Part shown: piece after piece, positions 23,106-25,065 of the stretch
Layout of the letters: each line of letters starts with the position of its first letter
Position numbering within the stretch: position 1 is the stretch's first letter
Assembly: GCA_012521705.1 (NCBI GenBank)
Contig: JAAYLX010000001.1
Location: 34,156 to 98,155, forward strand
Length of the DNA: 64,000 bases
Reading direction: 5' to 3'
DNA from: Clostridiaceae bacterium
GTDB lineage: Bacteria; Bacillota; Clostridia; DSM-8532
Notes under the pieces: generated by a model
The model's database searches: none
What the model saw: the letters and a program-made list of their open reading frames with translations, nothing else
What the model was told of the DNA's origin: nothing
Position numbers and translations under genes: made by a program

Positions 23106-23587
23106 TTATTGGGCTACTGCATTCAAATGACAATTTGAAATGCATACTGCACAATCCTTGATATAGACAGGTATCACCCTCACAAAATAGTGGCAGAAGC
23201 ATGGAAAACTGTTCTTGCAGCAGAAACTCAGCCTGAACATATGAGAGAGTTTTTCTTTCCTGTCAATGATGTCATAAACCCAGTTGCCCATAAGGCTTTC
23301 AAAGTTGCCGTTGCATGAGCGGTAAAGGACAAACTCCAGCTGAGCTGTTCCTTTCTCGTTTTTGGGCACAAAGAAAAGGTTGCAGGTAAACAAGATTCTT
23401 GTTGTCGGCCTATTAAGACATGTGGTGTCTATGGATATTATCCCAAGGGTTTTTGGGAGACATGTTCGGTGAGAGGTATATGCCAACGGTCTACTGTCGG
23501 GCACAGTAAAAGCAAACCCCTGTCCTGTACTGCATTCCATAATTATTTTGTCTGTCTTGCATGAACTTGTTCCACATTCAGTTAAAT
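23106..23587 (-). CDS. Cysteine-rich domain (possibly DUF4489-like), likely translated as a fusion with the upstream ORF; ATG at 23540 lies inside the homologous domain
   Basis: Aligns with 24193..24762 product along its length (RPTTRILF..PKNEKGTAQLEFVLYRSC..GNWVYDI..ISNCHL.AVAQ); open frame begins at the A10 run. Confidence 0.6.
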
Positions 23588-24088
23588 GTTTTTTTTTTCA
23601 ATTTCGACGGTAATATGTTGTTGTTCCTCAAAGTCATTAACTTCCTCTTCATCATGTTTTTCAAATTCTGTTTCTTTTTCTGCATCTGTTACGGATTCAT
23701 CTATTTCGCTTCCCATGTATTCATCGGCCGGATAATATTTTTCGGAGGTATCATAAATAGGGGCATTCAGAAAGCTGTTAATATCATAATCTTCCACCGG
23801 AAGTATATCTTTTTTTCTGATTTTCTCTTCTTCCTTTGCGGTAAGTATTTCAGGTTCATGCACATAGTATAATTCCCCGGAAACTTCATTGACGGGCTCA
23901 TCTATAACGGTTTTTGTTTCGGTTTTACTATTAGTTGAAATATTGGTTGTAATATTTGTTGTTATATTATTTTCAGTTTGAATGGAAGAGGAGCTGGAAC
24001 TTTTACCACACACCATTGTGGTCCAGCCTACATAGTTTTCGAAATACTTTTCCCACATTTCTTCCCATTTTATTCTCTTCGCTTTCAT
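23582..24088 (-). CDS. Hypothetical acidic protein with Ser/Thr/Asn-rich segment; candidate 5' part of a frameshift fusion
   Basis: RBS ggaggt before ATG 24088; ends VEIEKKNI* at an A10 run. Confidence 0.6.
   Translation of the reverse strand: MKAKRIKWEEMWEKYFENYVGWTTMVCGKSSSSSSIQTENNITTNITTNISTNSKTETKTVIDEPVNEVSGELYYVHEPEILTAKEEEKIRKKDILPVEDYDINSFLNAPIYDTSEKYYPADEYMGSEIDESVTDAEKETEFEKHDEEEVNDFEEQQHITVEIEKKNI
23588..23598 (-). other. Slippery A10-C run containing A_AAA_AAC heptamer
   Basis: Minus strand reads GAA AAA AAA AAC ATT TAA; -1 frame is open only from this run onward. Confidence 0.6.
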
Positions 24089-24156
24089 GATAAGGCACCT
24101 CCGGCATTCTTTACTAATCATTTTATGCCGTGGTGGCAGAAAGGTTATATATTAAG

Positions 24157-24185
24157 TGACGGCTAATCAGAAAGATTAGCCGTCA
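24157..24185 (-). terminator. 12-bp perfect hairpin downstream of cysteine-rich gene
   Basis: tgacggctaatc-agaaa-gattagccgtca. Confidence 0.55.
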
Positions 24186-24192
24186 GAACCCC

Positions 24193-24762
24193 TTAATGAC
24201 CCTGAGCAAAAACAGCAAGCTGGCAATTTGTCACGCAGATAGTGGCATCCTTAACGAATACCGGTCTGCATTTAACTATGTAGGTACAGCATCCCGGGCA
24301 AGTGCTGCAGTCACAATAGTCAAAGCAGAAGGATTTAGCAAATTTGTCGTCGTCCTCAATTTCGTAATTCCATGTGCCAATTACGCATTCAGGGAAGTCC
24401 TTGCAGCATCTTACAAGGTCGAATTCCAACTGAGCATGACCGTCATTGTCAGGGATAAAGTGGATTATGCTCGAGAATTCAATCTTGACTTTAGGTCTGC
24501 ACAGACATGAGGTGTCCACTGTTACGTTGGCAACTGTTTTGGGAGTGCAGATACATGTTGCGTTTTCTTCCTTGCTGTTGCTGCAGTTTGCTGAGAAAGT
24601 AAATCCTCCGCCGTTTCCACATTCAAAGAGTATGGGCTTCGGAAGAGGATGGCCCGGCTCGCAGCATTTTGCACATCCGCAGTCATGATCGTCCTTTTTG
24701 TAATCATCTTTCCTGTCGTCTTTCTTGTAATCGTCTTTTTCGTACTTATCGTATTCTGGCAT
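24193..24762 (-). CDS. Cysteine-rich protein with Lys/Asp-repeat N-terminus (possibly DUF4489 family)
   Basis: MPEYDKYEKDDYKKDDRKDDYKKDDHDCGCAKCCEPG; paralogous to 23106 product; RBS gaggt. Confidence 0.7.
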   Translation of the reverse strand: MPEYDKYEKDDYKKDDRKDDYKKDDHDCGCAKCCEPGHPLPKPILFECGNGGGFTFSANCSNSKEENATCICTPKTVANVTVDTSCLCRPKVKIEFSSIIHFIPDNDGHAQLEFDLVRCCKDFPECVIGTWNYEIEDDDKFAKSFCFDYCDCSTCPGCCTYIVKCRPVFVKDATICVTNCQLAVFAQGH

Positions 24763-25065
24763 TATATTTAACCTCATTATGTTTGTCCTAATTTCATAAT
24801 ATTCTTTGGTAAATTTTTGGTTACATCATCCTGATAATTACAGACAAGTTTAATTCTAAAAAATTTTTTAAAATAGTTGGGAATACCTTAGTATTTTATG
24901 TTGAAAATAAACAGGTAAGATGTTATTATGATGCTGCTGTATTTTTTTTTAATAGTATCTGGACGTGGGCGGTCGGCTGCACGTTCTTCTTATGTCCGAA
25001 ACAAATAAGCCTTTTTTTCTTGCTGGTGACAGCGGTTTATTATTGGTTAGGAAGGAAGGTAATAA

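Follow-up and report, generated by a model that had tools for sequence, protein, structure and literature searches.

A DUF4489 gene split at an A10 homopolymer in a Clostridiaceae bacterium

Two minus-strand frames meeting at a run of ten adenines

The 64,000-nucleotide stretch of Clostridiaceae DNA that we analyzed (the window; positions are counted from its first letter) carries on its minus strand two adjacent open reading frames, in different frames, that meet at a homopolymer of ten adenines, and beside them a second gene of the same family. The features of the locus are listed here.

23582..24088, minus strand: 5' half of the gene, with an MKxxxxxWxxMWxxYFxNYxGW motif and an acidic low-complexity linker, up to the frameshift; matches the start of single 291-444 aa open reading frames in relatives
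23589..23598, minus strand: A10 homopolymer, the point of frame loss, with A_AAA_AAC in phase; the sole stop-free window common to both frames
23106..23597, minus strand: 3' half of the gene, a DUF4489 domain (PF14879) in the -1 frame, open from the A run; Pfam E=2.8e-9, 46-58% identity to eight relatives
24193..24777, minus strand: intact DUF4489 paralog adjoining the split gene; Pfam E=3.9e-17, the pair being kept together in seven other genomes

The upstream frame (24088-23582) is an acidic ORF of 168 codons. It starts at an ATG at 24088, preceded by GGAGGTG, a good ribosome binding site, runs into the A10 tract, and terminates at a TAA at 23584-23582. Frame 0 at the junction reads GAA ATT GAA AAA AAA AAC ATT TAA on the minus strand, and the -1 frame reads TGA AAA AAA AAA CAT TTA ACT GAA TGT GGA and is open on to 23106. 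The last upstream stop in the -1 frame is the TGA at 23600-23598, which overlaps the first A of the run. Because this TGA and the TAA bracket the junction, the two frames can be joined only within the A10 tract plus CATT. The first-pass annotation of this DNA had described both ORFs, the TGA and the A10 run with the same sequence and coordinates that we obtained on re-reading the minus strand, and its statement that a -1 join is possible only at the run agrees with the positions of the stops in both frames.

A single open frame in relatives

A Pfam profile search assigned the downstream half to DUF4489 at 37.7 bits against a gathering cutoff of 27 (E=2.8e-9), and the neighboring paralog (24777-24193) also scored above the gathering threshold, at 63.2 bits (E=3.9e-17). 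In a search of 99 related genomes, the long matches to the downstream half comprised eight orthologs outside its own genome, to which it is 46-58% identical. Each of the eight is encoded in one open frame (291-444 aa) that spans both halves without interruption and has no internal stops. The upstream half alone matches the N-terminal part of these frames, most clearly in G012 (E=3e-10), followed by G013 (2e-5), G002 (7e-5), and G001 (2e-4), and more weakly in G006, G011, and G004. Since every ortholog is a single frame and each half finds its match there, the comparison indicates that the two ORFs are halves of one gene whose normal state is the fusion. The earlier claim that both ORFs form one protein is thus borne out by single-frame orthologs in eight genomes.

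From N to C terminus, the orthologs share the motif MKxxxxxWxxMWxxYFxNYxGW, a linker that varies, and the domain. The linker is acidic in every ortholog except one and is not conserved, so the ancestral run length is not readable from the relatives. The downstream half and the neighboring paralog resemble DUF4489 (PF14879) proteins in that both exceed the Pfam gathering threshold, whereas this ortholog group differs in having the MW..NY.GW motif and the acidic linker N-terminal to the domain. A search for a solved structure related to the downstream domain gave no related entry (best E 0.66), and there was no mention of DUF4489 in the literature searched.

In seven genomes (G001, G002, G006, G011, G012, G013, and G026), a DUF4489 paralog lies about 1 kb from the ortholog on the same contig. 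The two-gene cluster of paralog and long ortholog (23106-24777 of the window, minus strand) is conserved across the genus and in G026, which belongs to another genus.

The downstream half departs from the other sequences at 3 of the 34 columns that are invariant among them; because intact orthologs range from 0 to 6 such departures, this half shows no sign of decay at the sequence level. Beyond the break at A10 we found no independent lesion in the gene, of the kind that a gene dead for long should have acquired. The gene nevertheless appears to be dispensable in the genus. No match was found in genus members G003, G005, G008, G009, and G010, and the ortholog in G007 is a truncated remnant consisting of the last ~65 residues of DUF4489 beside an unrelated gene (L042:2900-3200). 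Absence or truncation in 6 of the 13 other genus members, some of these six assemblies being incomplete, suggests that loss of the gene is tolerated in the genus. The minus-strand interval from about 24088 to 23106 very probably holds one DUF4489 gene that loses its frame once, through the length of the A10 run within the nonconserved acidic linker.

The A10 tract and the A_AAA_AAC heptamer

The A10 tract is the sole A/T run of 10 in the 64-kb window. Its presence by itself is unremarkable, since shuffled sequences lead one to expect 2.7 such runs. It had been suggested that homologs in related genomes be examined for the A run; the gene is single there, and the A10 is not kept. The longest A/T run in the eight orthologs is 8, none occurs at the position of the A10, and nothing like a slippery run lies 5' of the domain. 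The frame break is a singleton, found in no ortholog.

The headline of the first-pass annotation was that a canonical -1 slippery site joins a Cys-rich domain to an acidic protein. If ribosomes were programmed to shift by -1 at A_AAA_AAC, they would make a short acidic protein together with the long fusion, and the heptamer does lie in the correct phase where the two frames overlap, tightly bracketed by stops. IS elements likely use A_AAA_AAC (PMC4066793). With their programmed -1 frameshifting at A_AAA_AAR/C the DUF4489 gene shares the in-phase heptamer, but it is not a mobile element, and the motif has low efficiency in E. coli (PMC4066793). Against this reading, none of the eight orthologs has the site or a change of frame, and they encode the fusion in one frame. 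In window ORFs of 150 aa or more, AAAAAAC occurs 25 times and is in the slippery phase in 9 of these, or about one third, so the in-phase heptamer is no commoner than chance. For pseudoknot-free folds, the 121-nt region around the site is no more stable than its dinucleotide shuffles (z=0.11), and inspection by eye of the upstream sequence revealed no Shine-Dalgarno-like purine tract that might act as a stimulator. In the GeneTack classification, a programmed frameshift requires a conserved site, and singleton frameshifted genes are likely the product of an indel mutation or a sequencing error (PMC3711429). We rejected programmed frameshifting on the grounds of nonconservation, chance motif frequency, and lack of a stimulatory structure, and we regard it as highly improbable; the headline is weakened further by the like breaks at other runs in unrelated genes that are described below. 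Two separate genes, the second with its own start codon, might be read from the adjacency of the ORFs and their different frames, but this is scarcely credible. The orthologs are single proteins, and the sole candidate start of the downstream ORF, the ATG at 23540, coincides with the F of IIFEC, a conserved motif of the domain (IIMEC here), with no Shine-Dalgarno sequence ahead of it in the upstream sequence that we inspected. This ATG is therefore not plausible as a natural start, and we rejected it as such.

Long A/T runs in the assembly and the origin of the break

The assembly comprises 2.25 Mb in 59 contigs, and the related records are metagenome-assembled genomes. It contains 21 A/T runs of 9 or more, eight of them of 10 or more and thirteen of exactly 9. 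The genes at these runs were named from reading their translations, not from profile searches. Among the seven runs judged to be coding, the frame is broken at three (the A10 of the DUF4489 gene, a T10 in a dacF-like gene, and a T9 in an rsmF-like gene) and maintained at four (an A10 in a PRC-barrel-like gene, an A9 in a GGDEF gene, an A9 in a lipoprotein gene, and a run of 9 in a second carboxypeptidase gene). None of the 18 open frames judged coding at runs of 8 is broken, a count that covers the first 30 listed places. The contrast of 3/7 with 0/18 (Fisher p=0.015) is no more than indicative, as we judged coding status visually, on the basis of open frames, and had set out from the case in the window itself.

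The dacF-like gene, for a D-Ala-D-Ala carboxypeptidase, is split at its T10 run (G000 C15:62031-62040; L044:1501-1510). In 12 genus members it is read in one frame, and the T run is absent from all those that hold the site. The rsmF-like methyltransferase gene has a ribosome binding site and an ATG and loses its frame after seven codons (MKLPVFF*) at the T9 run (G000 C4:8431-8441; L052:1501-1511); in 10 relatives it begins MKLP or MNLP in frame. Unrelated conserved genes are broken at other long A/T runs as well, so the DUF4489 gene is not alone in showing the effect. Repair of the frame needs -1 (or +2) at the dacF-like and rsmF-like runs and +1 (or -2) at the A10. Such a mixture of directions is in keeping with noise in run length or with slipped-strand mutation, not with a directed -1 program.

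Rather than a programmed frameshift, the break is most likely a singleton homopolymer indel, reflecting either a run length that is miscounted or mixed or a mutation of recent date. The first-pass annotation had also listed an indel, an assembly error, and transcriptional slippage as alternatives, and that list is supported. Either the consensus run length would be wrong, through sequencing error, assembly error, or a mixed population, or a real slipped-strand indel would have arisen recently. We see about an even chance that the A10 in the consensus is an artefact, a miscalled homopolymer or one length of a mixed population, and that the gene is intact in the organism. The fragmentation of the assembly, the metagenomic origin of the related records, the excess of breaks at coding runs of 9 or more over runs of 8, and the presence among the broken genes of the conserved dacF-like one, which 12 relatives have intact, all point this way, although the PRC-barrel A10, the GGDEF A9, and the lipoprotein A9 are in frame. 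Somewhat less probable, but a serious contender, is a real recent slipped-strand indel in the A10, which would leave a newly formed pseudogene, or a gene that is leaky or happens to be phase-variable, with some full-length protein made by transcriptional slippage. A-tract indels are documented, and insertions during transcription grow exponentially with the length of the A/T run (PMC5574713); Blochmannia has such frameshifts in otherwise intact genes (PMC3017870), and the DUF4489 gene is itself absent or truncated in six genus members. The tract is absent from the orthologs, all of them from other species, and thus gives no sign of a selected phase-variation switch. When we looked for another assembly of this species, the search returned other species only, at 48-59% identity, and very near records may be left out of that result.

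If the A10 is real, slippage of RNA polymerase on it should make a small share of the transcripts full-length, which would be a by-product rather than a programmed device. The break is compatible with leaky expression, and the gene is possibly leaky through such transcriptional slippage. A broader proposal, that the organism uses leaky slippage of RNA polymerase or the ribosome on its rare A10 and T10 runs to make truncated and full-length forms of several proteins, including those of the DUF4489 gene and the dacF-like carboxypeptidase gene, strikes us as very unlikely.

The main value of these observations is a caution for annotation. The interval 24088-23106 is best annotated as a single, frameshifted DUF4489 gene, and long A/T runs in this assembly are to be distrusted, because the conserved dacF-like gene and the rsmF-like gene are broken likewise.

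The splitting of a gene by a homopolymer indel is an ordinary kind of event. As in the tract frameshifts of Blochmannia and Buchnera, one indel within a long A/T run divides an otherwise intact conserved gene, and a genome holds several genes of this kind. Slippage may bring back the frame in part, and in Blochmannia it may rescue homopolymer frameshifts in otherwise intact genes (PMC3017870). The present genome, known from one assembly, has A/T runs of 9 or more at about seven coding places, whereas that of Blochmannia is extremely AT-rich and contains more than 100 coding poly(A) runs of 9 or more (PMC3017870).
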